The translations under genes were made by a program, and so were the position numbers. 50,445 bases of DNA from a virus: positions 1 to 50,445 of the IMG/VR virus record IMGVR_UViG_3300036858_000014; one strand, written 5' to 3'. The notes beneath the pieces were generated by a model that made no database searches, had not been told where the DNA came from, and saw only the letters and a list, made by a program, of their open reading frames with translations. This document shows, one piece after another, positions 380 to 18,669 of the stretch. Position 1 is the first letter of the stretch, and the number at the start of each line of letters is the position of its first letter.

Positions 380-1036
380 TTAATCCCAGTCGTATTTTAA
401 ACTTATCAACTGGTTAATAAACGTAATCCTATCACGCGCAAGGTCTGTCCGCATGTTTACAGTGATGTCTCGAATGTAAATAGGATGATCTACTTTAACG
501 GGCTCTGTATATGTTTGAATTAGCGCCCGTTGAAATGCCCAATCCTCACCACCTATTTCAAAATCCGCATCATACCCCCCTGCGCTTATCCAACTCTGTT
601 TATGGAATAGCATTGTGGCTTGACATACATTCTTGCGTGTAACCATCCCCGGCGGTGGAGCTATAATCGTTTCGCCTTTTTCTATCCAATTACCGTATAT
701 CCACTTATCCTCTTGATACCCTTCATAGAGATATTTTATGCCGTCTGGTAGTAATTGGTCATCAGCATCTAATGGCACAATTAAATCCATTGCTGCCCGA
801 TGCACTCCTAAATTACGCGCATACACTACACCGCTATGAAACGGGAGTTCAATGTATTCAATATGGTGATGTTGTTTTGTAAAATGTGCGACGGTTTCAC
901 GGGTGTAATCATGAGAACAATCATCAATGATAAGGATTTGGGCTGCATTAGCGCTTAATGCACTATCAATAGCACGCCCTATCATACCTCCCATACAATA
1001 TGTCGGGATAATTACCGTTACTGGATAGGGTGTCAT
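380..1036 (-). CDS. Family 2 (GT-A) glycosyltransferase
   Basis: This 218-residue protein has the GT2 pattern: TVIIPTY near residue 7, IIDDCSHDYT near 37, the metal-binding DADD at 90-93, and GGEDWAF near 160. GT2 enzymes transfer a sugar from a nucleotide-sugar donor. The ATG at 1036 is chosen because ATGA overlaps the stop of the upstream gene and a G-rich Shine-Dalgarno run (AGGGGGG) lies in front; the open frame extends further upstream into that gene. It is the last gene before the terminator at 335-359. Acceptor and donor cannot be told from sequence. Confidence 0.85.
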   Translation of the reverse strand: MTPYPVTVIIPTYCMGGMIGRAIDSALSANAAQILIIDDCSHDYTRETVAHFTKQHHHIEYIELPFHSGVVYARNLGVHRAAMDLIVPLDADDQLLPDGIKYLYEGYQEDKWIYGNWIEKGETIIAPPPGMVTRKNVCQATMLFHKQSWISAGGYDADFEIGGEDWAFQRALIQTYTEPVKVDHPIYIRDITVNMRTDLARDRITFINQLISLKYDWD

Positions 1037-2175
1037 AACTTGCCCCCCTGCCCTAATGCGGAATATTTGACTATCCGCCACGCTTCTATTTCCCCGCGCG
1101 TTATGCCAAGCGGATTACCCACGTCAGACGGTTGTAACAAATCGCGCGGCATAGGGTCACGGTCGGTCGTAAAGCGGTCAAGACGTTGATCCCACAAGTT
1201 GCACAACGTTTGCGATACCTTGCTATTGGCAAGGCGCGTAAGTGCCATCTCAAAACGATGATCTATAAAACCGTTTACCAGCGGATAGCCCGCCAGATAG
1301 TACACATCAACACTTTCGGGCGGATACTGCCAGTTAATCATATTGCAGTCGCACAAGCGCACTTGGAATATCCCTAACTGGCTGTCTACGCTGCGTATCG
1401 CGGCGGCGGTAGATGTGCTTGTGGCATTCCCTAGCCCGCAGTTTGAGCAGCTATAAGCGTTATCCTGTATCACAAAGGCCTGTGAAGTATCCGTATAGAC
1501 GCGGTACACGTCACAAGCAGTAATGAAATCGTTCGGGTTACTGGTATTCGCTGTGTTGATGGTTTCGTAGTTGTTGTTATCGTACAGATACGGTAGCTTC
1601 CAAATGGACGGCTGTACGCCTAGCGCCCGGTGAAAGCGTATCGTCGCGGTGTTACCTGACTTCGTAACCCGCGCGGGTTCGATTTGCCACTGCTCATTTG
1701 CCGCGCTCTCTGCCCCGTCTGCAACGCGAAAGAACGCCTGAATTTCAGCAGCGTCAACAGTGGTTGTAACCGTTACCGTTGCTAAGTCTAGAATACCATC
1801 CCCATCGCTATCAGAATACGCAACAGCAGCATCCGCTTGGATAACGGTTGTCGCGCGTTGACCGTAGGCTTGCACATATCCCCATTGGGTGCGTAATTTC
1901 TGAAGCTGGTAGGGGGAGGCGTTGTTAATTGGAATCCGTTCACCGACATACACCGGACGGGGGAAATAGCCTAAGTAGGTCGATAGCAGTTCCCACGCCT
2001 GATTAAGCGTACTGGTGATTTCGTCGCGCGGCGGTTGCGTGTAGACGGGTTTCCCGCCTTCTTTAAGGGGAACGCCCGCGCCCAACACCTGATTAAAGCG
2101 CCAAATGTTTTCACCCATGACCCGCTGCCACATGTTAAGGGTGTTATAGGTAGGAATATGAAATGAGACAGCCAT
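1033..2175 (-). CDS. Probable head-tail connector/adaptor protein
   Basis: This is a 380-residue protein without a catalytic signature that I recognise. The N-terminal third (WRFNQVLGAG, VYTQPPRDEI, PVYVGERIPI) looks like an assembly protein. A short DSDGDGILDL segment near 120-130 resembles an acidic calcium-binding loop, and several cysteines (SCSNCG, RLCDCN) cluster in the middle. It is translationally coupled to the glycosyltransferase downstream and precedes the neck protein, a position usually held by head-completion proteins. The assignment rests mainly on position. Confidence 0.5.
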   Translation of the reverse strand: MAVSFHIPTYNTLNMWQRVMGENIWRFNQVLGAGVPLKEGGKPVYTQPPRDEITSTLNQAWELLSTYLGYFPRPVYVGERIPINNASPYQLQKLRTQWGYVQAYGQRATTVIQADAAVAYSDSDGDGILDLATVTVTTTVDAAEIQAFFRVADGAESAANEQWQIEPARVTKSGNTATIRFHRALGVQPSIWKLPYLYDNNNYETINTANTSNPNDFITACDVYRVYTDTSQAFVIQDNAYSCSNCGLGNATSTSTAAAIRSVDSQLGIFQVRLCDCNMINWQYPPESVDVYYLAGYPLVNGFIDHRFEMALTRLANSKVSQTLCNLWDQRLDRFTTDRDPMPRDLLQPSDVGNPLGITRGEIEAWRIVKYSALGQGGKL

Positions 2176-2177
2176 AG

Positions 2178-4181
2178 TTACGCCTTAACCGCATTCGCTA
2201 ATGTGTCGTGTGGGTCAGTCATGACTTCCCGCCAGTTATGCCCTTCAGTGTATTGCAGATGTTCCCAGTCACGTACATCAATCACCATCTGACGACTTGC
2301 GGACGGGTTGTATACGTAGGGTGTATTCGACACCCTACCCATTACCCCGAACTGGTCAGTACGGCGGCCTGTATATTCAATCACGACACTACGCCGTATC
2401 GTCTTTTTGATGCTCGGCAGGATTTCGTGAATAAGCTCATAGACGCGCTGTTTAAAGGTGTGATGCTCTCTAACCCATGCCGCGCCCGCTTGTGCGATTG
2501 CAGCCCGCTTGACAGCGTTTTCAGGGGCAAGCCAGAAGCGCACCTTGTTTTGGAGATCAATGAAATCATCCCATGTCACATAATGGACGCCCGCTTGCAA
2601 GCCCGTGAGTTCATCAATATCCGTAACCACCTGATGCAAAAGTAACCCGCCGCCGCAAGCAAGGGTTTCAAAGAAACGGTTCGATACGAAGCCGCGATGT
2701 TCACGGTACTGGTTATCCCCGATTACAAGGGCAGCATTTGCCATCACGCCCCATGAACGCCTAAAGTCATAGGTGGTATCAAGTGCTTCGCGGCCTATCC
2801 TATCCCACATATCCCCATAGATACCGATGTTAATCCCCTCTTTTTCGAGGTCAATCAGGGCAAACCCTAAATCAGCGCGGGCTTGACTGTAACAACTGCC
2901 CATAAACACCGCATCATGCGCGGGCATGGTCGTATCAATAACGTCAGGTTGCTCATGCCCAATTTGCCAGTATGCAGCGGGTATCCCTAACTCCTGATAC
3001 TTGGGGAGCAAGTGCGGATTAACGACCAGCTGCAAGTCTATCTCGCGTAACAGTTGGGTAATCTCGCCCCTTGTGAGCGACCATTCCCACACATCCCCAT
3101 TCCAGTTTACCCAAACGGCGTTGGGGATACGCATCCGCAGCCGGACAAGCATCGGGGCTGTGACCACATCCGCGCCGTGAAACTGGCTGATAACCAAGTG
3201 CGGTTTAAAGTCCGCTAACGCCGTGCCTAAAATCGCTTCCAATTCATCATGCTTGACCGCAACTTGACGGTTATCTGAGTCGCCGTAGTACAGTCCTAAG
3301 TAATCAAACTGGTGAACAATAAACCGTTCCTGTAAGGCTTTTAGCAGCCCATTCTTTTGCGCCCGCGCGGTAGCATGGTGCTTGCCCGGTTCAAAGATGG
3401 GCAGGTAAAACACCCTTAATTGCATCGCGTCCTGATTATCAATCGCGGGGGATGGTTGCACTTGTGCGCCATTCGGGAAGAGTCGGTAAAACTCGTGACT
3501 GTCCCCATGTCCACCCGGAACGAACTCAGGACTTCCACCGTTGACTTGGCGTAAGGTATCTGCCGCAACATAATCATGGATCGTGCATCCCGAAACGGCG
3601 TCAACTGTATAACCCAACTCCCAAATATTGGAGGATAAAAGATTGTCACCCGCGTAAGTACGTGCTTTGAACGCTTGCTCTGCATACCCCCTCCACCAGT
3701 TAACCTTATCGCCTAACCACTTGCGAAACATCCCGACTTGCGCGTACACAATGCCCTTCTGTTCACCGTTGACGATACCCATTTGATAGGCCACATCATA
3801 CTTACCAGCGGGTTTATCGCGGTTGTCAGCAAATGCGACCGCGCCACATGTAGGGGTGTTTTCAAGGTGTACGAGGGCGCGTACAATACCGTTATCCATG
3901 AACTGAATATCGTCATTCGCAAGGATTACGTATTTCCCCTGCGCTGCATGGGCGCCTTCCGTAAAGGCATCGATTGCGCCTCTGAGTTCGCCGTGTTCGA
4001 TAAGGTGTAGATCAGGTTGCGACTTGCACCATTCAATTGTGCCGTCTGTACTGCCCCCGTCAACAATCACAAACTCATACGGAATACCGTCAGGGATGCG
4101 AACGCGGGCGCTGGTGAGCATTTGCTGTAACAGCGTTAGGCGGTTATATGTTCCAGAGACGATACTAATCAACGGTTGCAT
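2178..4181 (-). CDS. Two-domain glycosyltransferase (GT2 plus CgeB-like GT-B)
   Basis: This 667-residue protein appears to be a fusion. Residues 1-210 form a GT-A domain, with ISIVSGTYNR at the start, DGGSTDGT at 41-48 and NDD at 89-91. Residues from about 270 onward look like a GT-B domain of the CgeB kind, with NRFFETLACGGG near 560, then HYVTWDD. Two active sites would let one polypeptide add two sugars in sequence. The start at 4181 uses a TAATG overlap with the upstream gene and a GGAG site 8 bases upstream. Only general sugar transfer can be claimed. Confidence 0.8.
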   Translation of the reverse strand: MQPLISIVSGTYNRLTLLQQMLTSARVRIPDGIPYEFVIVDGGSTDGTIEWCKSQPDLHLIEHGELRGAIDAFTEGAHAAQGKYVILANDDIQFMDNGIVRALVHLENTPTCGAVAFADNRDKPAGKYDVAYQMGIVNGEQKGIVYAQVGMFRKWLGDKVNWWRGYAEQAFKARTYAGDNLLSSNIWELGYTVDAVSGCTIHDYVAADTLRQVNGGSPEFVPGGHGDSHEFYRLFPNGAQVQPSPAIDNQDAMQLRVFYLPIFEPGKHHATARAQKNGLLKALQERFIVHQFDYLGLYYGDSDNRQVAVKHDELEAILGTALADFKPHLVISQFHGADVVTAPMLVRLRMRIPNAVWVNWNGDVWEWSLTRGEITQLLREIDLQLVVNPHLLPKYQELGIPAAYWQIGHEQPDVIDTTMPAHDAVFMGSCYSQARADLGFALIDLEKEGINIGIYGDMWDRIGREALDTTYDFRRSWGVMANAALVIGDNQYREHRGFVSNRFFETLACGGGLLLHQVVTDIDELTGLQAGVHYVTWDDFIDLQNKVRFWLAPENAVKRAAIAQAGAAWVREHHTFKQRVYELIHEILPSIKKTIRRSVVIEYTGRRTDQFGVMGRVSNTPYVYNPSASRQMVIDVRDWEHLQYTEGHNWREVMTDPHDTLANAVKA

Positions 4182-4414
4182 TAGACCGTCTCCGGTAGCG
4201 GGTTTAAAAACATTTCCCAAGACAAGAGATATACCCTGTCCATATCCTCAATGCTCATAGATGTGCTACCTATACCGTCATAACGATAAAACTTACACGC
4301 CCTCACAAACTCATCAGCGTTCAATCCCAGTAACGCACATGCCGCAATCTCGCAAAAATTTAGCAAGGATTGGCGGGTAGTGGAGATATAATCTTCTAGC
4401 GGTATGTACATCAT
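4181..4414 (-). CDS. Hypothetical small protein (77 aa)
   Basis: The start MMYIPLEDY overlaps the stop of the upstream lipoprotein gene (TGATG), and the stop overlaps the next glycosyltransferase start (TAATG). This double coupling supports it as a real gene. It is a soluble, Cys-containing protein, mostly helical by composition, with no motif I can name. Confidence 0.65.
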   Translation of the reverse strand: MMYIPLEDYISTTRQSLLNFCEIAACALLGLNADEFVRACKFYRYDGIGSTSMSIEDMDRVYLLSWEMFLNPLPETV

Positions 4415-4566
4415 CAGTAACACGCTGGCGGGCAAGGCCGCCCCTCTATCGCACATCCCGGCGGTGGCGTAATGCACGGCGACGGGGTTGGGCGTATCGG
4501 ATAGGTGCAAGCGGGTAGCAGAATGAGAACCGTGATAACGAAGGCGCGTAGGGTTGCTTTGTTCAT
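4414..4566 (-). CDS. Small Pro/Cys-rich lipoprotein (50 aa)
   Basis: The ATG at 4566 overlaps the stop of the methyltransferase gene (ATGA). The product begins MNKATLRAF, followed by a hydrophobic stretch ending in a lipobox LLPAC (cysteine at residue 19). The short tail is rich in proline and cysteine. It should be a membrane-anchored lipoprotein. Rz1-type outer spanins and superinfection-exclusion lipoproteins have this size and composition, but its place in a glycan cassette far from the lysis genes argues against a plain spanin. Confidence 0.65.
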   Translation of the reverse strand: MNKATLRAFVITVLILLPACTYPIRPTPSPCITPPPGCAIEGRPCPPACY

Positions 4567-5318
4567 TTCGCTGTTGTCTTTCGCTTACGTGTCGCTTTCG
4601 GTTTCGTATCGACTGCAATCCCCTTTGCTGCAATCTTACGCGGGGCAGTATCTACCGCAACGGGCGCTTGATGTATCTTGTTCGGTTGTGTAATCAATAG
4701 TCCGCAATCGCTCGGTTCAATGAGGTACGTTTCGTATTCAATCCCGGCGGCATCATACCCCGCAACAACCCGTTCACCGACGATAGGGTGCAAGGCATCA
4801 TGGGCAACCAGTACACCGCCTGTAATCAACACACGTGGCGCTTCTAAGCCTATCGCTTCGCACGTCACCTCATCATGCCACAAATCCTCAAAGAGCAAAT
4901 GTACGCTGTCGTCGGGTAGACTCTTAAGGTATTCCAGAGCATCGGTATGCACAGGGGTAATGTACGCGCGTAAGTCGTCAGGGATATAACTACCGCTAGA
5001 CTCTTGCGTATCAACGGTAATAACCCGCCCCGCGCCGCCGCGCTTGTGGCAAGCCAGCGCCATATGTGCTGCTGATGCACCGTACTGCGTACCAAGTTCT
5101 ACAATGTTACCTGTCACCTCAAGCGCCCGGACAAGGGCGTAAAGTACCTGTCCCTCCACGCCAAAGAGTGAGCCGATAGGGAACATGCCGCGCCCGTTAT
5201 CCCATCCGGTAAAATAATCTTCACGGGCGTAAGCGATTAGCGCGGCGGCGTCAAGGTCAAGCTGTTTCGCAATCGCGATTAGGGCTTGTTCAAGATTCAT
5301 GCTTTGCTGTGTTGTCAT
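4563..5318 (-). CDS. Class I SAM-dependent methyltransferase-like protein
   Basis: This 251-residue protein has a Rossmann methyltransferase core. Motif I, NIVELGTQYGASAAH, is at 71-85, followed by VITVDTQ, then LLFEDLWHDEVT, and GGVLVAHDA late in the fold. This is closest in style to the Methyltransf_24/cephalosporin-hydroxylase group often found beside glycosyltransferases. The last 40 residues form a Lys/Arg-rich tail. ATGA overlap with the upstream glycosyltransferase supports the start. A likely role is methylating a sugar or glycan. Confidence 0.7.
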   Translation of the reverse strand: MTTQQSMNLEQALIAIAKQLDLDAAALIAYAREDYFTGWDNGRGMFPIGSLFGVEGQVLYALVRALEVTGNIVELGTQYGASAAHMALACHKRGGAGRVITVDTQESSGSYIPDDLRAYITPVHTDALEYLKSLPDDSVHLLFEDLWHDEVTCEAIGLEAPRVLITGGVLVAHDALHPIVGERVVAGYDAAGIEYETYLIEPSDCGLLITQPNKIHQAPVAVDTAPRKIAAKGIAVDTKPKATRKRKTTAK

Positions 5319-6094
5319 TCAATAACATCCTTCCCCCAATACGGATGATCTTGCATCCAATCCGGCAGGTAGTCGCGCGGGTCAACGGGTTCAGGATTCC
5401 AAAACCGCTTGCTTACCGGATGAACATCAACAACCTCATTATGCTCATACTTGCTCATGAAATCAGGGCGCAATTCGGACTGATGCCCATGTCCACCTGC
5501 CCACTTGTACCGCTGATATTCAACCGGAACGGCATAACCGAAGTGGCAAATATGGCGCTTTTCACCCGTTTCACCACGCGGGATATACGACTGCCCTATG
5601 CGTTGATAGAACTCATTCGAGGCTTTTGGGTAGGTAATGCGCTGCGGCATCTGTCCATCGTTCACAATCGCGCGGTTGAATGAGCGCCAAAAGTGGACAA
5701 ATGGTACAAGCCAATGCCGCCGTCCTTCCCGCATCGCAACGTCATAATTCTGGAACGCGAGTTGCGCCAGCGCCGGATTCCACACCTCATCACTATCGAC
5801 ACTTAAGATTATGTCGGCATCGGGTGCAAACGTGTAAATGGCGTCCCGGTGTTCGCCCTCTAATCGCCAGTCGCCTTGCACCCACCGCAGTTTATCCCCC
5901 GCCGCTTGACGGGCTATCGCGTACAATTCACGCGGGTTGTCAGGACATGGCACAGCCGTTTGCTGATTACCGTTGTGCGAGGGGCGCTCGGCGTACAGAA
6001 TATGAAACTCATCTACAGCGTACAGCAGTGACCGAATAGCGGCGGCAAGATAGGGTTTACCGTAATGCAGCGGCATGAAAGCGATGGTTTTCAT
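5315..6094 (-). CDS. Glycosyltransferase, GT2-like
   Basis: This 259-residue protein begins MKTIAFMPLHYGKPYL and carries IILSVDSDEVW with the acidic DSDE metal site at 100-103, typical of GT-A enzymes of the GT2-like superfamily. The ATG at 6094 overlaps the stop of the small membrane gene upstream (ATGA), which decides the start over the longer open frame. The downstream methyltransferase is coupled in the same way. Substrate unknown. Confidence 0.75.
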   Translation of the reverse strand: MKTIAFMPLHYGKPYLAAAIRSLLYAVDEFHILYAERPSHNGNQQTAVPCPDNPRELYAIARQAAGDKLRWVQGDWRLEGEHRDAIYTFAPDADIILSVDSDEVWNPALAQLAFQNYDVAMREGRRHWLVPFVHFWRSFNRAIVNDGQMPQRITYPKASNEFYQRIGQSYIPRGETGEKRHICHFGYAVPVEYQRYKWAGGHGHQSELRPDFMSKYEHNEVVDVHPVSKRFWNPEPVDPRDYLPDWMQDHPYWGKDVIE

Positions 6095-6255
6095 GCCGAT
6101 TTGCGCCAACTGCTAATAAAGGGCATCATCAAAGCCCCGCCAAAAGCAGCAAATCCTGTTATTGTAGGGTTAGCGCCACTACTGTATATCGCTGCTAAAA
6201 CAACAATGCCCACGATAAACATGATAATATTTGCTATCGTTTTTGCTGTCATCAT
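6091..6255 (-). CDS. Small two-segment membrane protein (54 aa)
   Basis: The start MMTAKTIANI is preceded by GGGGGA and overlaps the upstream stop (ATGA). A hydrophobic segment covers about 7-24 and a second, weaker one about 32-48, with a basic end (SWRKSA). It is translationally coupled on both sides inside the glycan cassette. It could anchor or assist membrane-bound sugar transfer, but that is only inference. Confidence 0.6.
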   Translation of the reverse strand: MMTAKTIANIIMFIVGIVVLAAIYSSGANPTITGFAAFGGALMMPFISSWRKSA

Positions 6256-6602
6256 TCCCCCTGTTTTGCTGTCAAAATATCCACAATCTCGCCTAGCCAA
6301 CTTACTTGCTCTCGTAACGCCTGTATCTGCATACAGAAGTCGGGTGATTTTGTCGCCAGTTCCACAGCCCACTCGTTGAGTAGGTCATAGTAGAATGCCG
6401 CATGTACGATGATTGACTTGCGCGTCGGGTTGTCGTTGAGCATCGCTAATGTGCTATCGTGCGCTGCTACCGTCTTGCCGACAATCTCGCCCTTGCGTAA
6501 TTCACTCATTACCAGCGCCATGTTCGCAGTCGTTTGCAAAGTGATAAGCATCGGTTTTAGGATGCGGAAGGGTACGCGGTTAAGTGGCATATTAGATGTC
6601 AT
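6252..6602 (-). CDS. Hypothetical protein (116 aa)
   Basis: The start at 6602 (MTSNMPLNR) lies inside the last codons of the upstream gene, and the stop overlaps the small membrane gene. It is a soluble, helix-rich protein with no recognised motif. Its conserved spacing within the glycan cassette is the main evidence that it is real. Confidence 0.6.
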   Translation of the reverse strand: MTSNMPLNRVPFRILKPMLITLQTTANMALVMSELRKGEIVGKTVAAHDSTLAMLNDNPTRKSIIVHAAFYYDLLNEWAVELATKSPDFCMQIQALREQVSWLGEIVDILTAKQGE

Positions 6603-6861
6603 AGGCATTCCAGACTTCGACATGTTGCCCGTATAGTACGCTGTCTGGATTGTTGTTGTGAACAAGCATAGATAAACCGCAGGCTAAATCAGCGCGAACT
6701 AAAGGCGCTAAAAAATGGTCAAAATTGAGTAATGATTCAAAACACTGATAGGCTTTATACCATTCCGCAAACTCAAAACGCCGTACAATAGCGCGAATGA
6801 TTCGCCGCTGCTGCATAGCGTTAATAGCTTTTACGGTGTGCTTGTTTTCGTATTCCACCAT
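6592..6861 (-). CDS. Hypothetical protein (89 aa)
   Basis: It starts immediately after the stop of the upstream glycosyltransferase, with GAGGGGG in that gene's last codons acting as ribosome site. The first half is rich in basic and aromatic residues (QQRRIIRAIVRRFEF). No family recognised. Confidence 0.6.
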   Translation of the reverse strand: MVEYENKHTVKAINAMQQRRIIRAIVRRFEFAEWYKAYQCFESLLNFDHFLAPLVRADLACGLSMLVHNNNPDSVLYGQHVEVWNAYDI

Positions 6862-7629
6862 CTATAACGCCCCCTCTACCCAACTGCGAAACGGTTTCTC
6901 AATGCATAAAAACTCATACAGCGCCGCGCCATAACTACTCACATCCATATCCCGCGCTTTCAGTAGCCCATCGGGTAGCTGGTTATACGTACCGCGCATA
7001 AAGTGGTGCTGTCCAAACGGGCTAGGGTCTACCATTGACTCAGCATACAGCGGCATTCGATACGCGGCGGCTATCGCCCATCGTAACGGCGCAATCGTGG
7101 CAACGTTATCATGCTGGTGAATGTGAAGCATAATCCGCGCACTCAGCAAAGCATTGTGGCGGTTATCACCCCATGTATTCCCCGCGACGTTAACATGTAA
7201 GCCGCGCTCATGTAGGTTTTGCAGCATGTTACCGCGCCGCCATGCTTGGCTGTAGCCTAAGAAAATCGCGTCATGTTGCCATGACACCGCGCCGCCGGGG
7301 TTCAAACCGGGATGGCTGCCTAACGGTACAAACCGCGCGCCGATTTTCCGCGCGTGCCATGCGTCAGAAGTCCACTTTTCAGCAACACCGGGCGGGCATG
7401 GGTCGGACGCTGCCTCCCATTCCAACTGCCACCAAATCAGTCGTGCTTGTGCTTGTGACCAGTCGCCCCATTCGCCGTTACGCGGGGCTATCACATAGCA
7501 TTTGCTAGGGTCGTGAATGTCCATTTCGTCAATGTAACAAACGGGATACCCTGACAACTCCGCAAGGCGAAAGAAATCATTGTACGGGTCGTATTGGTAG
7601 CGTGTGCGAACGAATGTAACGTCAGTCAT
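6862..7629 (-). CDS. Glycosyltransferase-like protein (GT-B/CgeB type)
   Basis: This 255-residue protein resembles the C-terminal half of the large glycosyltransferase at 2178-4181. It has an N-terminal Rossmann-like part, DAIFLGYSQAWRR in the linker, and a C-terminal nucleotide-sugar half with a LHIHQHDNV strand and ALYEFLCIE near 235. GT-B enzymes of this kind have no DXD motif, so catalytic residues cannot be pointed out with confidence. It overlaps the tiny membrane gene upstream by 8 bases. Confidence 0.6.
   Translation of the reverse strand: MTDVTFVRTRYQYDPYNDFFRLAELSGYPVCYIDEMDIHDPSKCYVIAPRNGEWGDWSQAQARLIWWQLEWEAASDPCPPGVAEKWTSDAWHARKIGARFVPLGSHPGLNPGGAVSWQHDAIFLGYSQAWRRGNMLQNLHERGLHVNVAGNTWGDNRHNALLSARIMLHIHQHDNVATIAPLRWAIAAAYRMPLYAESMVDPSPFGQHHFMRGTYNQLPDGLLKARDMDVSSYGAALYEFLCIEKPFRSWVEGAL
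7270..7285. repeat. Dispersed palindrome site 1 (GTCAT-GTTGCC-ATGAC)
   Basis: This is a perfect 5+5 bp inverted repeat with the same arms and 6-base centre as six other sites in the genome. It lies inside the coding region of the GT-B-like gene. Confidence 0.6.
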
Positions 7630-7792
7630 TTTTACGAGAAAATAAAAGCATAAAACTGCCTATTGATAATGCAGCACATAGCCATAAAAGGAACTTATCG
7701 AAATGGATACTTGTCGATATATTAACTGATGCCCACCATGCCCACAGACTGAGTATAATAAGTACAAGCACGCCTATAACTATGTTCCTCAC
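7622..7792 (-). CDS. Small membrane protein with GTG start (56 aa)
   Basis: The GTG start overlaps the upstream stop (GTGA), and the stop lies just inside the following glycosyltransferase. The product has two hydrophobic segments, about 3-22 and 35-52, with a short basic tail (SRKND). The tight coupling on both sides and clear membrane character support it despite its size. Function unknown. Confidence 0.65.
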   Translation of the reverse strand: MRNIVIGVLVLIILSLWAWWASVNISTSIHFDKFLLWLCAALSIGSFMLLFSRKND

Positions 7793-7992
7793 ACTTCCCC
7801 CTCGTACTCTTGCCGTAGCGTGCGCGTCTTGGTATCAGCTACCAAGTGATACCGCGCCCCCGGCGGTAATGCGTTCCACGTTTCAGCGTTGACGCCTAAG
7901 ATAACAAATGTGTCATCATCTACGGCGGGCGCTTCCGGTTCATCCGGTTCACCGCTTAGGCTGTTGAGATAATCCTTTTCGTTCGGTGTCAT
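7789..7992 (-). CDS. Small acidic hypothetical protein (67 aa)
   Basis: It begins MTPNEKDYLN, is rich in Glu, Asp and Pro between residues 14 and 27, and has a more basic C-terminal half. A GGGGGAG run just before the start serves as ribosome site. It is flanked by two tiny membrane genes. No family recognised. Confidence 0.6.
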   Translation of the reverse strand: MTPNEKDYLNSLSGEPDEPEAPAVDDDTFVILGVNAETWNALPPGARYHLVADTKTRTLRQEYEGEV

Positions 7993-8121
7993 CTACCCTC
8001 TCCCCCACTTCTTACTTGCCAGCATCCGAAACATGCCCGCTAGGAATAGCGATACACCGACTACACCTGTTACGCAGCCAAGCGAGTACGCGCCTAGGAG
8101 TGCAACTGTGTTACTGTCCAT
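7993..8121 (-). CDS. Tiny membrane protein (42 aa)
   Basis: The ATG at 8121 lies in the end of the upstream gene, behind AGGATGGG. One Gly/Val-rich hydrophobic segment spans about residues 5-31, followed by a basic tail (ASKKWGRG). The stop TAG abuts the next ATG. Position and coupling argue for a real gene. Confidence 0.6.
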   Translation of the reverse strand: MDSNTVALLGAYSLGCVTGVVGVSLFLAGMFRMLASKKWGRG

Positions 8122-8380
8122 AATCCCATCCTGTGTACTTGTGCGCTAACATCGCTAACCCCGCTGATGCAATCGTTGCGACCACATCCAAGCGGGTTAC
8201 AGCTATCGACAACACGACGGATACCCAAAACGCCGTACAGACAATACACTCAAGCAGCTTTAAGCCTACCCGCTGGTCAAGGTTGCGCAGGTGTATGAAC
8301 ATGCCAAAAAGCCCGTGCGTTTTCGTGAGCGCGTGGGCAAGATACCATGTAGCGAGTGCTTGTGTAACGAGGATTTCCAA
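8111..8380 (-). CDS. DUF1360-like membrane protein (89 aa)
   Basis: The protein has a conserved-looking ECIVCTAFWVSVVL core between two hydrophobic segments. The Cys-x2-Cys followed by an aromatic/Trp membrane helix is typical of the DUF1360 phage and sporulation membrane proteins. The fold suggests an integral membrane protein with a small cysteine site. Its role is unknown. It starts 4 bases after the upstream glycosyltransferase stop. Confidence 0.55.
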   Translation of the reverse strand: MEILVTQALATWYLAHALTKTHGLFGMFIHLRNLDQRVGLKLLECIVCTAFWVSVVLSIAVTRLDVVATIASAGLAMLAHKYTGWDYGQ

Positions 8381-8384
8381 CGGG

Positions 8385-9287
8385 TTATGCTGTCCGTTTT
8401 TGTGCTGTCTGCGCTAATTGTAACACAGTATCCAAATCAGGCGCAATAGGCGCGGTCGGTGACAGCGGTTTCCACAAATTAGGCTTGGCTTCGTAGTCAC
8501 GCTTATCAACCCACAGTGTAGCACCATGCCCAACGCGCGGGTACTTTTTGCCGCTGATTAAACCGACCTCGTGACGCGGCGGATACAGCGCTTGCACCTC
8601 GATAGCCCCTTCAAAGTAGGTATTGGCTATTTGTCCGGTCGCTACGGTAGAACTTCCACAGCACATGTCAGCATATCTCCCATACTTGGCTTGTAAACGG
8701 TCGTAATGATTGCGAACAAAGGTTTCTTGATGAGGGTTCTTTTGGTGATTGGTCGCACTTGCGCCTAAATGTATTCGGTAGTTGACCAGCGGTTTTGCAA
8801 CCCGCTTGACGCGTAACCCGGCAAGGTGGAGACGGATATACAAGTCCTCATCTTCCCCGCCGCGCATGGTTTCATCAAATCCCCCGACAGCTTCAAAAGC
8901 CAACCGGGGGAGTAACGTTGTGATGATGTGCGCCATACCGTCTCGAATGATATGAAACCCTTCGTTTGCATAGCGCACAGTATCGCCTACTTGCCAGTCT
9001 GTGTACACATACCGATTACCGCCCCCACTCGCCAGCCATGCCCCTACCGTTTCGTCAAGAAACCCCGGCGCTAATGTATCGTCAGCGTCAAGGAATACGA
9101 TAAACGGCGCGGTTGATTGTGCAACCCCTGTATTCCGCGCCCATGCCGCGCCTTGTTCACGGCTGTCGTAAACGACTTGCACGTCAACCGAATAGGTTTG
9201 GTTACAGGCGCTGGCGATTGCATCGTCAACGACCGCATAATGATGCGGCGCGACGGGAATGATAATGCTGGCGAGTGAGCTGGGCAT
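8385..9287 (-). CDS. Family 2 (GT-A) glycosyltransferase
   Basis: This 300-residue GT2 enzyme has ASIIIPVAPHHY at the N terminus, FIVFLDADDTL with the metal site at 67-70, and GGEDEDLYIRL at 143-153, the usual acidic catalytic region. The C-terminal 100 residues are an extension without clear homology. It is the first gene of the glycan cassette and lies 4 bases after the major capsid gene, so it should be expressed with the capsid. Confidence 0.88.
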   Translation of the reverse strand: MPSSLASIIIPVAPHHYAVVDDAIASACNQTYSVDVQVVYDSREQGAAWARNTGVAQSTAPFIVFLDADDTLAPGFLDETVGAWLASGGGNRYVYTDWQVGDTVRYANEGFHIIRDGMAHIITTLLPRLAFEAVGGFDETMRGGEDEDLYIRLHLAGLRVKRVAKPLVNYRIHLGASATNHQKNPHQETFVRNHYDRLQAKYGRYADMCCGSSTVATGQIANTYFEGAIEVQALYPPRHEVGLISGKKYPRVGHGATLWVDKRDYEAKPNLWKPLSPTAPIAPDLDTVLQLAQTAQKRTA

Positions 9288-9291
9288 CGGT

Positions 9292-10779
9292 TTAGCTTAC
9301 GGGCTGATAGGCGTTTGGTGAATAGTACGGGCCGTTGGCATTGAAGTAGCGCCCGCCGTTAAGGTGATAGGCGGCATCTGGATACGGATCACGCCCATAC
9401 AGGAATCCCGGCAGCGAGTAGTTCACGTTGTCAATACGCGCGGCTAACCAAGGCGTGCGCATAATCAGACGCGGGCGGGCGGCGATATAGGCTTCGACGC
9501 ACATCCCCGTTTGCCGATGGGTCATAGCATAAAACCCGCCGTTCATCGTGCGATAGGCCAGTGGGTTATAGACATCACGAAACTCTTGGATGTCTGAGTT
9601 TTCCAAATCAAACCCTTCAAGATAGGTGACTTGACGCCCCATTGCGGTTAGCGGAATGAAGTAGATAGATGAGCTAAAGCCCTGCCCTAGCGTGGTCTGT
9701 TCAATCGCGCGGGTTGTCACAACGGGCAAGCGCATACCGTTCACCCATAGGAAGTTACCCGTTCGCATTTCATCACGCATCTGTACCTGCATATCAGCCG
9801 ATACGTTCAAGCGTTCGCCGTCATTGTTTGTCACCGCACAGCCATTGGTTAAATAGCTGCAAGGCCAAATGCTGGTCAGTTTCCAGAACAAGTCAGGATG
9901 CATCGCCAGTACCCAATTCACGGGTGCAATGTTGCTGTCATCCGCCAGCGCAATCAATTGGTACATGATACCTGCGACAATATCAGTGATACTACCGCTT
10001 TGCACCGTACCTCCGACATCGGCATTACCCCAATTAAAAATGGTAGACCGTGCAGCCGCGCAAGTGTTGCCTTCCACGTCAACAACCGTATTGGTAATCA
10101 AACGGTCAAAACCGTTAAATTCCCGAATGAACCCCAACTCGGCATTGTTACCTGTGTTCGCAGTTGACCCGTGAAACAAGGTACGCATCAACACGCGGCT
10201 CATGTGTACACCCAAGCTAAACAGCGCCAAGCCAAGCGTGGTGTTTGGGTTTTGCGCCCGCTGCAATACGTCAGGAATCAGCGGAAACAAGTCGGGACGG
10301 TTCACCAGATTGCGATTCACATCGCTGTTGTTAATCCGCCCGCCTGTTTTTGCAAGGTTCGCTTGGCGTACCTTAATGAAGAAATCGGCAAACGTCGCGC
10401 GGGTAGTACACAGTTTGACCTCCCCCGCCGTCGGTGCATCACCGCAGTAATCGGTAGCATTCGTACCGCTGCCTGCCTTGACACCGCTGATAATGTCGTA
10501 TTCAGGGTTGTCAATGTTGGTTACGCCGCGATACAGTGCCGACAAAAACTGTCCTGCGGTCGGCATAACAAACGCGGCGAACATGTCCGCATCCGCGCCG
10601 GGGCGGGTGAACAAGCCGGGTACGTTCTGGTTTTGAAAGAACCCATGCGGTACTTGGATGTTCGGGCTTGGTGACAACACATCGTGCTTTTGGCCTACGT
10701 TGAGCATCCCGGCGTCGAGGAGCTTTTGGTACGCCTCAACCGGGATTTCAACACCGTCAATTTTGATTACATCACTCAT
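9292..10779 (-). CDS. Major capsid protein (HK97-type)
   Basis: This 495-residue protein follows the protease-scaffold gene, the classic HK97-type order. It has no signal peptide or enzyme motif, has a Gly/Asn/Pro-rich C terminus, and contains long strands and loops such as NWVLAMHPDLFWKL and FIPLTAMGR that recall the P-domain of phage capsids. A strong AGGAG site lies 8 bases before the ATG, fitting high expression. The identification combines position, size and composition. Length is larger than the HK97 prototype, so extra surface domains are possible. Confidence 0.85.
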   Translation of the reverse strand: MSDVIKIDGVEIPVEAYQKLLDAGMLNVGQKHDVLSPSPNIQVPHGFFQNQNVPGLFTRPGADADMFAAFVMPTAGQFLSALYRGVTNIDNPEYDIISGVKAGSGTNATDYCGDAPTAGEVKLCTTRATFADFFIKVRQANLAKTGGRINNSDVNRNLVNRPDLFPLIPDVLQRAQNPNTTLGLALFSLGVHMSRVLMRTLFHGSTANTGNNAELGFIREFNGFDRLITNTVVDVEGNTCAAARSTIFNWGNADVGGTVQSGSITDIVAGIMYQLIALADDSNIAPVNWVLAMHPDLFWKLTSIWPCSYLTNGCAVTNNDGERLNVSADMQVQMRDEMRTGNFLWVNGMRLPVVTTRAIEQTTLGQGFSSSIYFIPLTAMGRQVTYLEGFDLENSDIQEFRDVYNPLAYRTMNGGFYAMTHRQTGMCVEAYIAARPRLIMRTPWLAARIDNVNYSLPGFLYGRDPYPDAAYHLNGGRYFNANGPYYSPNAYQPVS

Positions 10780-10799
10780 GTTTATACTCCTAATCCCGG

Positions 10800-12083
10800 T
10801 TACTTGACTTCCAACGGTACATTCATACCGGGGAACATCGGGTCATACTCGACGGGTAGCTGTTCTTTCAGCTTGTTCTTATCCGCTTCACTTAGTTTGG
10901 TTTCCGGCGCTTCACTCGCACGGCGCGGCGCGTCCCCTAGTTTCGCGGTCAGGGCTGCAATTTGCGCCGTCAAATCCTTGACCTGCTTTTCGAGGGTCAT
11001 ATTCTTTTCAGACTGCGCTTTCGCGCTGGTGGTTTGTGCAGTGACAAGGGTAAGCAGCTCGCCTTGCCCTTCGATCAACTGTCCGACTAGCTCCCCAAGC
11101 GCTTTTGTGGCGCGGGTATCTTCTGAAACCTGCTGCTGTGCATCGGCGTCTACAAAATCCTTGTAGTTCACCCCGGCCTCTTTGATCTTTTCGCTTTGTT
11201 CTCGCAACTGGTCAATGCGGCTTACCGCGTCCTTGCCCATCACGAGTTCAAGCGCCGCCGCTTGCTCTGGCGTAATCTGCTGCATATCTTTTACCTCATA
11301 TTCAGTAAACGGATTCGCCGCAACCAACGGCGGCGGCAAAGTAGAAATCTCAAAGGTGTTGATGACCTTATATTGACCATCTTCAAAAGCCCACTTTGGA
11401 AATGTGAACCCATGCGAAAGCGGCGTGTCGCGCCCTTTCGTGGTGTAGTAATCGACCGCGCGTTTAGCCTCCGGGGTATCGTCAAACGTACCGACCGCAC
11501 ATACGAAATTGCCGACAGCGAATACTTGCGTGGCTTGCCCGTGTTTCGTGCCGGGGATATGCCCTAGCCACAATTCCGGCATGGGTACAAACCCCATGTT
11601 AACGCGCTTGAGATAGCCATCCCACGCCTTGTCCGTAATGATCTCGCCGTCTCTATCCTCAAAGTTATTGGAAAACACAGCGAACCAATGCGGCGTCTTG
11701 TCTTTCGTCCGGTATACGGTGAACGCATTGGACTGCTTTTGCTCACGTCCCAAAAGGCGTTTTACCAACTTGCCGACAAACCCCTCTTTTTCAGGGGTAA
11801 GCGCCACTTGCCCGCTGTCCATTTCGCCAACGGCGGGTTCGATGATGACAACCGGAATAGGGTCTACATCCGTCAGCGGCGGCGGGGTTTCCCATCGGTC
11901 ACAATAGCCCGTCGGGAGAATGGTTTCAGGCCAGCTTTGCACAATCAAACAGCTATCCCCATACTCGCCATTCGCACAAAAGAAACGGCAGTTTGCGCAC
12001 GCCTTTCCTTTTGTGATTGACAGTGGGATATAGTTTGTTTCCGCTTGTGTCAAGGGTGAAGTCATCTTCACTTGTTCATCCAT
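10800..12083 (-). CDS. Prohead protease fused to scaffold domain
   Basis: This 427-residue protein has three parts. Residues 28-63 hold a cysteine cluster (ACANCRFFC, then CLIVQ and GYCDRWE; Cys 29, 32, 36, 45, 61), a possible metal site. Residues about 120-265 look like a serine prohead protease: LGH with His175, PLSHGF with Ser223, and a late ANPFTEYE segment. Residues 270-427 are charged coiled coil, as in scaffolds. Protease-scaffold fusions shape the procapsid and are then cleaved. The gene sits between portal and capsid genes as expected. Confidence 0.8.
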   Translation of the reverse strand: MDEQVKMTSPLTQAETNYIPLSITKGKACANCRFFCANGEYGDSCLIVQSWPETILPTGYCDRWETPPPLTDVDPIPVVIIEPAVGEMDSGQVALTPEKEGFVGKLVKRLLGREQKQSNAFTVYRTKDKTPHWFAVFSNNFEDRDGEIITDKAWDGYLKRVNMGFVPMPELWLGHIPGTKHGQATQVFAVGNFVCAVGTFDDTPEAKRAVDYYTTKGRDTPLSHGFTFPKWAFEDGQYKVINTFEISTLPPPLVAANPFTEYEVKDMQQITPEQAAALELVMGKDAVSRIDQLREQSEKIKEAGVNYKDFVDADAQQQVSEDTRATKALGELVGQLIEGQGELLTLVTAQTTSAKAQSEKNMTLEKQVKDLTAQIAALTAKLGDAPRRASEAPETKLSEADKNKLKEQLPVEYDPMFPGMNVPLEVK

Positions 12084-12397
12084 TAATAAAACCTTTCGCG
12101 CGACTCTTCAAGCTGCTCATGGCGGTTATCGATCCATACAAAGCGAATGACAATCTCATCTTTAAATGGCGATAGATTCACACTGTCTAATGTGTCGCTA
12201 TTGGTCGCATAGAAAAAATTCCCCGTAACCCACCAGCGACGATAAAACACGCCACCTTGTACGAGAATGCCGATAACTTTGCGGTTGAGCATCCAAGGAT
12301 AAACCGTTTGCCATGTATCGTTTTGAACAGACGCGACAAAATCACCGACTGTCATTTCAATTGGATGACGCCAGTCATAAGTTGTGTCAGTATCCAC
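12083..12397 (-). CDS. Hypothetical protein (104 aa) between portal and protease
   Basis: It is rich in Trp, Tyr and Phe (WQTVYPWML, FYRRWWVTGNFFY), with no signal peptide. It overlaps the portal gene by 11 bases and touches the protease-scaffold gene, so it belongs to the head module. It may be a small morphogenesis factor, but I do not recognise a family. Confidence 0.6.
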   Translation of the reverse strand: MDTDTTYDWRHPIEMTVGDFVASVQNDTWQTVYPWMLNRKVIGILVQGGVFYRRWWVTGNFFYATNSDTLDSVNLSPFKDEIVIRFVWIDNRHEQLEESRERFY

Positions 12398-14474
12398 CTT
12401 TTGCCCGCCCTGTTGTTTTCTCTAACTCACATTTGCAGTTATACCCGCCACATTTCAATGCACTTGATTTTGGCATGATATGCGCGTGCCATTCTTTATA
12501 CCGATGCTTTTGCCCGTTCAAACGGCGGCAGTCGTCGCAGTGTTCCGTATCCCCATACTTCCAAATATACATGCCGTTTGCATCGGCACTCAACACCCCG
12601 GCATCATAGAACTCTTGCAGCGACTTATTCGACCACATCGCCGCCCGCATGTCAGGCGTGCCGATGAATACCCCATCGGCACCGAATATCTTGTTCGCCG
12701 CATCGGATACATAGCTGCTGTTTGCCGCGAGTAATCCTGCAATCGTTTCTTTTTCATCAGTCGGTAAATCAGCATAGCTTTCGACTTCAACCCCGCCCGC
12801 CGCTAGCCCGTCTAGGTAAGCCGCGCGTCCATAGGTATTCAGTGCAGAACGCATACGGATACCAAAAGACGCTTTGCTAACCGTGCCTTCGGCGGCGTCC
12901 TGCATAATCAGTTCTACGTTTCGGGTGTATTCGTCACGGGTGTCGGTGTATGCCTTGACATCACGATAGGCGTTCCCCCGTCTGCCCATGTGAGCATCAA
13001 TGTAGGATGCGAATCGTAACGTGCGATTAGCTGTTCCATCGTCAGTCGTTCCCCGTTGTCGAGGTACGGTGTCGGTGTTGGGTGTCTGGTTATCAGCGGT
13101 TGTTTCGGCAGTGGGCGGCGTAACGTTCGGGTCAATAGGTGTTTCATCATCCGCAATAAGTACATCATCACTACCCTCTTTCGGGTCACTGGACGGCAAA
13201 CGAATTTGCCCGTCGCTATCCATCAGGACATCACCGAACTCCGCCACATTGTTAGCTAGTAACTGCAATGCCGTTTCGTCGTCAATAAGGCCGGATGATT
13301 TGAGCGATGTAGCGATACCTGCCCATAAACTTGCTTGCTCGGCCTTCTGTTTATCCCCATCCGCGTCTTGATGCTTGAATTGAAATTCGAGATACGGGGG
13401 TAAGACTGTCCAATTTACAAAGCGCGTGAGCATTTGCAGGATGTAGCCAAACATCTTGCCTTGCCCCTTTTGCGCCAAGATAATCGACTGTGTACCCGTG
13501 CCTAAGCCCTGTCCCGTAAGAGGCCAAATGTCTTGTGGGTCAACACCAAGCGCAAGGGCTAACTTATTGACGTGTAGATCAATAAACTCTTTTTGACTAA
13601 AGCCTTCAGGTACGGTGCTAAAGGGAATGGTTTTGGCGTCAACGGGTTTTTCAGGATCAAGTGAATTAAGCACCAGCGTCTTGTGCCAAATGCTTGCCCC
13701 TACCGCTTGCCTATCGGCTTCATAACTGCGCTTGATATTTGTCCACTGCTTTTCCGTAATGCCGCTGAGTGCCAAAATACCGGACGGCGGCAAATCAGAC
13801 AGCATTTCGTAATCGTGCCGATTGAGAAACACGTCAACGAATGCCTCTTGTGCATACCGCGAGAGCGCACAAAAGCCGTTCCCGTACCCGCGTCGGTACG
13901 GGGTACTCAAATCTGCCCACCGCCAGACGCGCGACGTATGCATTCGGTGCATACTGCCGTCTTCCTCATTCCAGTACACAACCGGATATTCGTTTACCGG
14001 GGTTGCAACGCACGATAAACTGTCGAGTACGTTAACGGCTATCACCTTACCCGTTAAGGCGCGGTCAGCTTTGCCGCCGCCGACGATTTCAACAACGCCG
14101 CCGAAATCCTGATGCACAAAATCCCAAAGCAGTTTACCAATAAACGATTCCCACCCGTTCCCCATGTCGGCATATTGCAGCACGTCTTGATAATATTCGA
14201 CGTTGCGTTTGCCTTTGACCTCCCAAGGTGTGGCTTGCACCTTTTTAATCAGCGCTGCTACCGCCCCCTGCCAGAGCGAGTTGCCAAGCGTGTAGGACAA
14301 TTGACGCAAATGCAAATCACGCACGCGCAAACCCCATGTTGGCAGCGGGTCAGAATGCGTCACCACGTCATACCACATACCGCCGTCACCGACGCCGTAT
14401 GCGTAGTCTTTGCTTAAATTCAGGTCAGCCGTTTGTACGGATTGCCGGATTACACGCGGGTCATAAGTGGTCAT
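12387..14474 (-). CDS. Portal protein fused to MuF-like minor head domain
   Basis: This 695-residue protein has an N-terminal portal region (about 1-430) with LALALGVDPQDIWPL, a segment common in HK97/SPP1-type portals. A low-complexity Thr/Pro/Asp linker follows near 440-475. The C-terminal part (about 480-695) ends with YGDTEHCDDCRRLNG, then KSSALKCGGYNCKCEL, the cysteine pattern of the Phage_Mu_F family. Portals form the DNA gateway; MuF proteins are injected or interior head proteins. Such fusions occur in phages. The terminase lies 3 bases upstream. Confidence 0.88.
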   Translation of the reverse strand: MTTYDPRVIRQSVQTADLNLSKDYAYGVGDGGMWYDVVTHSDPLPTWGLRVRDLHLRQLSYTLGNSLWQGAVAALIKKVQATPWEVKGKRNVEYYQDVLQYADMGNGWESFIGKLLWDFVHQDFGGVVEIVGGGKADRALTGKVIAVNVLDSLSCVATPVNEYPVVYWNEEDGSMHRMHTSRVWRWADLSTPYRRGYGNGFCALSRYAQEAFVDVFLNRHDYEMLSDLPPSGILALSGITEKQWTNIKRSYEADRQAVGASIWHKTLVLNSLDPEKPVDAKTIPFSTVPEGFSQKEFIDLHVNKLALALGVDPQDIWPLTGQGLGTGTQSIILAQKGQGKMFGYILQMLTRFVNWTVLPPYLEFQFKHQDADGDKQKAEQASLWAGIATSLKSSGLIDDETALQLLANNVAEFGDVLMDSDGQIRLPSSDPKEGSDDVLIADDETPIDPNVTPPTAETTADNQTPNTDTVPRQRGTTDDGTANRTLRFASYIDAHMGRRGNAYRDVKAYTDTRDEYTRNVELIMQDAAEGTVSKASFGIRMRSALNTYGRAAYLDGLAAGGVEVESYADLPTDEKETIAGLLAANSSYVSDAANKIFGADGVFIGTPDMRAAMWSNKSLQEFYDAGVLSADANGMYIWKYGDTEHCDDCRRLNGQKHRYKEWHAHIMPKSSALKCGGYNCKCELEKTTGRAKGGY

Positions 14475-14477
14475 GTA

Positions 14478-15803
14478 TTAATACCGTAGATGCCATGTGA
14501 GATAACGCAATGCATCGAGGCAGTGGTCATCTACTTTAAGCGGTTTAGGTTCACCAATAGAGGCTTGCGTACCGGGATTGTAACGATAGCTTTGAAATTC
14601 ACGTATCAGGTTAACGCAACGCGGATGGATTTTAAGCTGTCTTACACCGTTGCCATCGCATACCAAACGACGTAGGTTTTTGATGCCTTCAGATACGGTA
14701 TGCGTTGCACCCGTCGCATTTAACCCCATTGACCATAGCCGTGCTTTTAATTCCGCCGCGCTGCTATCCACATAAGCGAGGGTTGGGTGCTGATACGGAA
14801 GCGCCATTACGTTTTGCACGCTGGCATCGGTGAGTTCGTTTGTAACCACGTATTCATAGAACACATTAACACCGCCCGTTGGGGTAATATTTGCCAACAA
14901 AAATACGCGCGGGTGATAACTCTCTGTACCAACGCCCTGTCCTGCGCTATACCCATCGTCAACACCCCACTCTATAGGCCAGTCGGGATTATATTCCGCG
15001 TCGGCAGTGACGTTATGCTCAACACTGAAGTTGTCATAAATCACGCCTTCCGCTTGCACCCAACGGCCTAACACAAGACGCTCATATTGCATCCCGGTTA
15101 ACCGTTCAAGGTTTGCAAGGTATTCGGGCGGGTTATGCGGGTTGTCTTTCGCGCTACTGTAGTAAACCGATGCTTCCCTGCCGATGATCAAACGCTGGTT
15201 AATCCAGTGCAAGGGGCTATCAGGATTTGTCATGAGAATGATTTGCCGATATTCGCCCACAGGGGAGCGCATACGGGCAATAATTTCGTTATAGTCTTGC
15301 TCGGTGAACGCGGTCGCTTCCTCAAACAGACAGATGCTTAACCCGCCATCCCCGCCGATAGACCGCACGCTTTCGCGCTGATCATCGTCATTCATCCCAC
15401 CCCAATACAGCGTACCCCCGTTGGCATACGCAAACTGGCGGTCAGATTTCTTCTTTTCGGCGATTGCGGTGTTACGCTTCATCACCGACTGCCACATAAA
15501 CGGGACAATCGACTTGCCCGCCCATTCCTGCGCTTTACGCATCATAAGACCCGTTGCGCCGGGGTAGCGTTGCATATAGCGGTTGACCAGTTCCAAGCCA
15601 AGGCGCGACTTACCGCCCCCTGCCGACCCTGTTAGCAGAATAACAGGCGAACGATCCTCAAGCGCGGGTAGCTGCCACGCGAGAGGGGTATAACCGTCAT
15701 TCGGTACTGTTGGTATTGCCGTTAAGTTGGTGCTGATGTGTTGCACCAACGAGTCGAACAAAGTCAGCTTGGATTGCGCTAAGTGCGCTGCTGTCTGATA
15801 CAT
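14478..15803 (-). CDS. terL: Terminase large subunit
   Basis: This 441-residue packaging ATPase/nuclease has Walker A GSAGGGKS at 59-66, Walker B LSICLFEEA at about 155-163, and coupling motif IILMTNP at 188-194. The RNase-H-like nuclease acidic residues are visible as GVDDGYSAG (Asp282/283), AYVDSSAAEL (Asp346) and VDDHCLDALRYL (Asp425/426/430). All key residues are present, so it should be active. The start at 15803 overlaps the small subunit gene by 107 bases; no ATG lies between it and Walker A. Confidence 0.95.
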   Translation of the reverse strand: MYQTAAHLAQSKLTLFDSLVQHISTNLTAIPTVPNDGYTPLAWQLPALEDRSPVILLTGSAGGGKSRLGLELVNRYMQRYPGATGLMMRKAQEWAGKSIVPFMWQSVMKRNTAIAEKKKSDRQFAYANGGTLYWGGMNDDDQRESVRSIGGDGGLSICLFEEATAFTEQDYNEIIARMRSPVGEYRQIILMTNPDSPLHWINQRLIIGREASVYYSSAKDNPHNPPEYLANLERLTGMQYERLVLGRWVQAEGVIYDNFSVEHNVTADAEYNPDWPIEWGVDDGYSAGQGVGTESYHPRVFLLANITPTGGVNVFYEYVVTNELTDASVQNVMALPYQHPTLAYVDSSAAELKARLWSMGLNATGATHTVSEGIKNLRRLVCDGNGVRQLKIHPRCVNLIREFQSYRYNPGTQASIGEPKPLKVDDHCLDALRYLTWHLRY

Positions 15804-16356
15804 TCCGTCTCACGCTATCTAACATCGCACTCATGAGCAGTATTGCTTGCTCTGCAGTAATGGCGCGTTCCTTCTGAAAATCAATCTTATGCACGGTTTC
15901 GACCAGCTTACGGCGCTGCTCTAGCTTGTCGCGTATCTCTTGTTCAGTCGCGTAATGCAGCACCCGTCTGTCGATGATGTCGCGCATTTCGGCAAGCAAG
16001 ATAACACACTTGCCGTAGTCATCTTTATGGAACGCCATTTGCATGTCAATAACCGACTTGCGAATCGCTTTCCACGCCTCCCCGCTTTCCTCTGTGTCAA
16101 GCGCCTCAAAGTTGCTGAGTAGCAGCGCGTCAATAAGGTTAATGTCATGTCGTAATGACAGCAGTTCAGGGTCGCTAGACGCATCCTGATATGCACTTAG
16201 CAGCTTGTCGGGTAAGTACTTGCTATAGCGTAGGTGTTTCGTCTGCGGCAACGCTAACCCGTTGGGTGTTTTGCCGCCATGTATTCGACAACGCCCGTTA
16301 GCCATCGCAGGCGCTTTACAGGGTTCACCGTTTCGTCGTTTCGCTCCACATTCCAT
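15697..16356 (-). CDS. terS: Terminase small subunit
   Basis: This 219-residue protein begins with a small zinc-finger-like module (CGAKRRNGEPCKAPAM, then GRCRIHGGKTPNG), the HGG-type N terminus seen in many phage small terminases. A helical region suited to DNA recognition and oligomerisation follows. It lies directly upstream of the large subunit, with a long overlap that suggests coupled translation. Confidence 0.8.
   Translation of the reverse strand: MECGAKRRNGEPCKAPAMANGRCRIHGGKTPNGLALPQTKHLRYSKYLPDKLLSAYQDASSDPELLSLRHDINLIDALLLSNFEALDTEESGEAWKAIRKSVIDMQMAFHKDDYGKCVILLAEMRDIIDRRVLHYATEQEIRDKLEQRRKLVETVHKIDFQKERAITAEQAILLMSAMLDSVRRNVSDSSALSAIQADFVRLVGATHQHQLNGNTNSTE
16144..16159. repeat. 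Dispersed palindrome site 2 (GTCAT-GTCGTA-ATGAC)
   Basis: Perfect arms, flanked by T and A as in the 18-bp consensus. It lies inside the terminase small-subunit gene. Confidence 0.65.
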
Positions 16357-16381
16357 AAGGGTTATATACTTCTATAGGGGT

Positions 16382-16729: not shown

Positions 16730-16958
16730 AAAACACCGGGTTACTTAATGGGTCAAAATACAGGGGGTTACGGGTTGCAAGATACCGAACCGGATTGGAT
16801 TGCGGGTCTACGATAACGTTATTCGCCAGCGGGTCGATATACAGCGGATTGCGTTCGGGTAAATAGTACACATCGGTTTCACCCACAAACGGGATGGCAC
16901 TAAACGCATGGGTACCGACTAGCCCCGGTAATCCGATAACGTCAAGATAGCCACTCAT
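16707..16958 (-). CDS. Short protein with NPLYxDPL repeats (83 aa)
   Basis: After a glycine-rich start, the protein repeats a 10-11-residue unit: RNPLYIDPLANNV, then VDPQSNPVRYL, RNPLYFDPLSNPV and FYDPDDN. Alternating Asn-Pro, aromatic and Asp-Pro residues suggest a rigid repetitive beta structure, as in fibre shafts. It is ATGA-coupled to the fibre-like protein upstream. I know no named family for it. Confidence 0.55.
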   Translation of the reverse strand: MSGYLDVIGLPGLVGTHAFSAIPFVGETDVYYLPERNPLYIDPLANNVIVDPQSNPVRYLATRNPLYFDPLSNPVFYDPDDNA

Positions 16959-18652: not shown

Positions 18653-18669
18653 ATCGCTGCTAAGTATAG

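Follow-up and report, generated by a model that had tools for sequence, protein, structure and literature searches.

A glycosyltransferase-rich locus between the major capsid and neck genes in a lineage of metagenomic phages

Which genes accompany the sugar enzymes in the head region of this phage genome? The window—the whole stretch of DNA analyzed, 50,445 bp of the IMG/VR record IMGVR_UViG_3300036858_000014—opens with a direct terminal repeat of 127 bp (1–127) identical, base for base, to positions 50319–50445. It therefore represents a complete genome of 50,318 bp, circular or terminally redundant, in which the leftmost gene of the record runs on at its right end, across the circular join. 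The late operon lies on the minus strand. It begins with the terminase large subunit (14478–15803; phrog_2 at 3.3e-35, PF04466), a probable portal with a Mu gpF-like C-terminal part (12387–14474; a weak PF04233 match and homologues in four related records), a probable capsid maturation protease/scaffold (10800–12083; named from its position and a homologue in the related locus L021), and the major capsid protein (MCP; 9292–10779). A 7.1-kb cassette follows, then the neck (head–tail connector) gene (1033–2175), a glycosyltransferase (GT), a gp10-like head–tail connector spanning the circular join (1–331), the probable major tail tube protein (48544–50133; assigned by position and kept in relatives), a chaperone-like gene, and the tape measure protein (45154–47715; PF10145 at 4.9e-14, phrog_1272).

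Some of these assignments are indirect. A family search with the MCP returned no match, and the AlphaFold model built from ten lineage members had a low pLDDT of 57, yet it matched HK97-fold capsids with a probability of 1.00; by this model, the protein upstream of the cassette is an HK97-fold MCP. The neck protein (alignment A5, 12 sequences) likewise matched no family, and the neck and portal assignments are based on synteny and weak matches. For the gp10-like connector, we used the translation across the join and a homologue at the same place in L010, with function assigned by synteny. At its C terminus, the probable tail tube protein has a BNR/YCF48-like propeller (PF14870, 1.9e-5); it is conserved across the lineage, with 28% identity to its counterpart in L010. 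Elsewhere in the window, a ParM/actin-like partition protein (23212–24276) and a double-HTH repressor-like protein (20035–20559) suggest a plasmid-like prophage state. A large ORF after the tail genes (38165–39313) has a C-terminal proline-rich linker and matches no family; by eye, it reads as glycoside-hydrolase-like.

The cassette, also on the minus strand, starts next to the MCP with a core GT2 glycosyltransferase (8385–9287; PF00535, PF10111) bearing a CCG motif and a small C-terminal module. A DUF1360-like small membrane protein (8111–8380), a small membrane protein (7993–8121), a soluble ORF (7789–7992), and another small membrane protein (7622–7792) come next, followed by a GT-B-like glycosyltransferase (6862–7629; alignment A12), two soluble ORFs (6592–6861 and 6252–6608), a fourth small membrane protein (6091–6255), and a remote GT-A-like glycosyltransferase with an invariant D-x-D-E (5315–6094). 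The remaining genes encode a class I S-adenosylmethionine (SAM) methyltransferase (4563–5318; Methyltransf_24, CmcI-like; PF13578 at E 1.5e-14) whose family has members in 11 related records, a proline-rich, 50-aa lipoprotein-like protein with the lipobox LLPAC (4414–4566), a 77-aa protein (4181–4414) whose ORF fills an apparent 232-bp gap, and a two-domain GT (2178–4181), another core gene, in which a GT-A (GT2) and a GT-B domain are followed by a short C-terminal extension. The lipoprotein is possibly an o-spanin unconnected to glycans, judging from its sequence. Directly after the neck gene lies a further GT2 (380–1036; PF00535 at E 3.5e-21; a longer alternative start at 1081), with an orthologue in the corresponding position of L021. 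No nucleotide-sugar enzyme was recognized among the scanned window ORFs.

The initial annotation of this DNA had described a nine-kilobase cassette (380–9287) with five GT-type genes, one of them two-domain, a methyltransferase, a lipoprotein, and several tiny membrane proteins, nearly all translationally coupled. That inventory holds, as does the coupling: consecutive ORFs overlap or lie 0–4 bp apart. The boundaries need correction, because the neck gene falls inside the range given; the uninterrupted cassette is 7.1 kb, and four of the five GTs, rather than all, lie between the MCP and the neck gene.

How good is the evidence for each GT? The AlphaFold model of the two-domain enzyme (pLDDT 85, pTM 0.82) shows a GT-A domain followed by a GT-B domain, with matches to GT-A enzymes (SpsA, GalNAc-transferases) and GT-B enzymes (BshA), in agreement with its Pfam domains (PF00535 N-terminal, PF13524 C-terminal). 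The GT-B-like protein has no Pfam match of its own; its orthologue in record G005 does exceed the PF13524 cut-off. Nor does the D-x-D-E protein match Pfam by itself. An eleven-member profile of its family, compared with the GT2-containing family A11, gave 95% probability (E 3.7e-8), and GmaR, the closest relative of solved structure, scored no better than E 0.0027. A structure match between 5315–6109 and Crov588 was dropped, since Crov588 is a repeat protein and was matched at 13 weak places.

Across the family of the GT2 at 8385–9287, the C terminus is conserved as CCG plus a module of the form KVWVEY..G...FGV.G..T...Y.V.G.GH..EVHV.D...F (for example, L074 18315–19442, L062 1455–2807, and L066 2407–3717); in some members, a helix-hairpin-helix-like or E3-binding domain closes the protein. 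The two-domain GTs of the window and of L021 finish with a comparable segment. Searches for a stand-alone copy returned fused copies alone, and the module had no PHROG or Pfam identity except at its HHH_5-like and E3_binding ends. In L061 (record G005), the GT2 core (11155–11937) and the module (11867–12256) lie in different, overlapping frames—a frameshift, real or assembly-derived.

We searched for relatives by DNA and protein. Queries with the MCP, two-domain GT, portal, and terminase found no close relative in phage records or viral_contigs, and MCP and portal searches of genome_contigs found none either. With the neck protein, and then neck and two-domain-GT alignments, as queries, we recovered 14 further IMG/VR records that encode the two-domain GT and a fifteenth in which only the neck was found. 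All are metagenomic, some are fragments, and their ORFs were called mechanically. Identity to the window is 23–29% for the MCP and 28–36% for the neck protein, which indicates that the group is deep. The initial annotation had proposed looking for the same gene order in related phages, and we found it: the gene order of L021 (record G010) is almost that of the window, and all nine records that have both MCP and neck genes (counting the window, and a closely related pair, G001 and G007) hold the two-domain GT and a second core GT2 between them. The GT-B and D-x-D-E enzymes are each present in eight of the nine intervals. The DUF1360-like protein is recognized by Pfam in eight, although two of these matches fall below the cut-off; in the interval of G010, it is recognized by similarity to its orthologue in the window. 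From these comparisons, we read the core of the locus as the two-domain GT, the second GT2, and the DUF1360-like membrane protein, usually joined by two more GTs.

Around this core the locus varies widely. The nine intervals measure 6.5, 7.1, 8.3, 10.7, 13.6, 17.9, 18.3, 24.6, and 28.5 kb, and genes on the strand of the operon take up most of their length. The larger loci share much the same gene order: MCP, D-x-D-E GT, GT-B, GT2, a further GT, RmlD-like, GT2, DUF1360, methyltransferases, two-domain GT, a NUDIX or fucose-synthase-like gene, GT2 with C-terminal module, and neck. Pfam searches of 129 proteins from eight intervals gave 29 matches to GT2, 13 to PF13524, 18 to Methyltransf_24, 10 to CmcI-like, and 8 to epimerase/RmlD families, where one protein may match several families. 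The variable part comprises methyltransferases, proteins resembling GDP-fucose synthase, RmlD, and NUDIX enzymes of the GDP-mannose mannosyl hydrolase kind—family-level names, because the curated NCBIfam cut-offs were unmet—and a possible sulfotransferase (G014) that scores below its Pfam cut-off. Such family-level nucleotide-sugar enzymes occur in relatives G001, G004, G005, and G014. Some intervals also hold genes or repeats of other kinds. That of G004 (L059, ~10472–18700) contains phosphonate-binding and transport-permease-type genes (PF12974 and PF00528 matches from the interval set, linked to G004 by visual inspection), along with nucleotidyltransferases and a C-methyltransferase. That of G013 (L064, 5156–7104 and 13092–13258) contains three clusters with a total of 13 CRISPR-like repeats, each ~29 nt long and spaced at ~61 bp, close to a TnpB-like ORF; one spacer occurs twice, and none matched the other lineage loci examined.

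Are the sugar enzymes tied to the head genes or merely near them? In the nine records, 34 of 40 GT2 genes lie inside the MCP–neck interval, which makes up 23% of their DNA, and three of the six outside it directly follow the neck gene. This concentration is not chance; the binomial value of 1.5e-16 is overstated, because the sequences are related. The main splits in the MCP and neck trees recur in the trees of the four core GTs, with distance correlations of 0.78–0.97, although a single deep split accounts for part of this agreement. The core has thus largely been inherited with the head genes, as an old part of the head module and not a recent cargo gene.

What, then, does the locus do? It probably encodes the enzymes that build, stepwise, a glycan on the virion proteins of the phage itself—one of the functions that the initial annotation had considered and the best supported of them, because of the fixed place beside the MCP, the inheritance shared with the MCP and neck, and the precedent of the cluster O mycobacteriophages. 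The enzymes would be made late, together with the head proteins. One GT would start the glycan by adding a sugar to a surface-exposed residue of the capsid protein, the tail tube protein (a possible acceptor), or both, and the others, notably the GT-A and GT-B fusion, would lengthen the glycan with sugars from the host nucleotide-sugar pool; relatives would supply some enzymes for those nucleotide sugars themselves. Methyltransferases would cap the glycan. Varying methyltransferases, epimerases, and the possible sulfotransferase would make the coat differ among phages in a serotype-like manner, and such a coat could plausibly shield the particle from proteases, predators, neutralization, or decoy adsorption. 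Serines at the capsid C terminus, hinted at as glycan sites by the window, G009, and G010, failed as candidates across the lineage.

A point against virion glycosylation is the DUF1360-like core membrane protein, which would be superfluous if the process were purely cytoplasmic; others are the weak similarity of the GTs to those of mycobacteriophages and the absence of a recognized nucleotide-sugar enzyme among the scanned window ORFs. The DUF1360-like protein is also the main argument for retaining a membrane-linked reading, in which late modification of a host polysaccharide or glycolipid by the enzymes would block superinfection or the re-adsorption of progeny to debris. Several small membrane ORFs in the cassette would fit this, and two GTs have PHROG matches to GtrB-like O-antigen conversion families; those matches, however, span the generic GT-A core. 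Gtr-type membrane GTs carry C-terminal transmembrane segments, and none of the window GTs does. The GtrA flippase (PF04138) was found in 0 of 15 records, against 7 of 14 positive controls, and so was the Bac_transf sugar-phosphate transferase that initiates on a lipid carrier (PF02397; 9 of 14 controls positive), the initiator search covering the PF02397 type. Given these two absences, and with expression alongside the head genes being late for surface conversion, we regard host surface remodeling, the other function initially put forward, as unlikely.

The position of the cassette could itself reflect an old insertion hotspot tolerated in the late operon rather than a virion function. In that case, the MCP–neck junction would be a permissive site that gathers metabolic genes of various functions, some aimed at the host and only a part acting on the virion, and certain intervals do hold phosphonate-transporter-type (PF12974, PF00528), HNH/NUMOD, and pentapeptide-repeat genes as well as CRISPR-like arrays. 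Against this stand the constant core, its largely constant order, and its co-inheritance with the MCP and neck, which leave a cargo site quite improbable as the explanation. DNA is a known substrate of phage GTs, for instance those of T-even phages, and the enzymes might glycosylate modified bases in phage DNA, an outcome that the initial annotation had set against its own proposal. This we consider very improbable, because the thymidylate synthase/dCMP hydroxymethylase family (PF00303) was found in 0 of 11 records, with 9 of 14 controls positive; TET/JBP oxygenase (PF12851, Tet_JBP) gave no match, though no control was positive either. Companions of the sugar O-methyltransferase, RmlD-like, and fucose-synthase-like types would also better suit longer glycans than modified bases.

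How does the locus compare with known systems? The initial label "unusual" is justified for phages as a whole, although cassettes of this kind have precedents. In cluster O mycobacteriophages, the head genes include, between portal and protease, a set of three GTs with an O-methyltransferase (PMC4351075), and two papers, both citing Freeman 2023, report that this cassette modifies capsid and tail tube (PMC11600133, PMC12619734). Like the present locus, Corndog gp35–38 and Firecracker gp33–36 place GTs and a methyltransferase contiguously within the structural operon. Theirs, however, is a four-gene block between portal and protease, without nucleotide-sugar enzymes or a two-domain GT, whereas the present locus lies between MCP and neck and is far larger. 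The window GTs are not orthologous to Firecracker gp34–36 or to Che8 gp108–110; similarity is weak and at the domain level, with a best BLASTP value against mycobacteriophage GTs of E 8e-4. Che8, of cluster F, offers a likeness in its three adjacent GTs linked to capsid glycosylation, but these sit at the far right end of the genome, outside the head operon, and its MCP and adaptor genes are ~12 bp apart. Caudovirales GX15bay (MK557849) carries an uninterrupted run of seven genes annotated as sugar enzymes, one of them a methyltransferase, immediately upstream of its terminase and portal genes; a window GT2 matches one of its GTs, but its block occupies another place in the operon and no shared head proteins were detected. 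The gtrABC O-antigen conversion modules also use phage GT2 enzymes, whereas the present locus lacks GtrA and GTs with C-terminal transmembrane segments and stands in the structural operon. Among eukaryotic giant viruses, chlorovirus PBCV-1 (A064R, A061L) and the mimivirus glycogene clusters build capsid or fibril glycans with multi-domain GTs, methyltransferases, and sugar-nucleotide enzymes (PMC9614988); their capsid is different, and the likeness drawn here is in the kinds of enzyme encoded. The present locus thus appears kin in kind to phage and giant-virus glycan cassettes, with enzymes that, by the tests made, are non-orthologous to the phage ones.

Taken at its fullest, and only tentatively, the picture may be one of a previously undescribed lineage (so called after a non-exhaustive literature search, and perhaps already described under another name) in which a glycan locus up to 28 kb long, capsule-like and diversifying fast, is fixed in the head module. 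It might lay down a methylated, possibly fucosylated or sulfated, capsid coat, with one GT tethered to the assembling particle by its C-terminal CCG and small-domain module (HHH-like or E3-binding ends in some members). To our knowledge, phage virion glycosylation is documented in few systems, mostly mycobacteriophages. If the proposal is true, a deep lineage with a constant but variable-length glycan locus in its head module would mean that making their own particle coats is a lasting strategy among phages. The locus would then be a phage counterpart of the giant-virus glycogene clusters, and its members would form a natural series in which to ask what the sugar coat of a phage is for.
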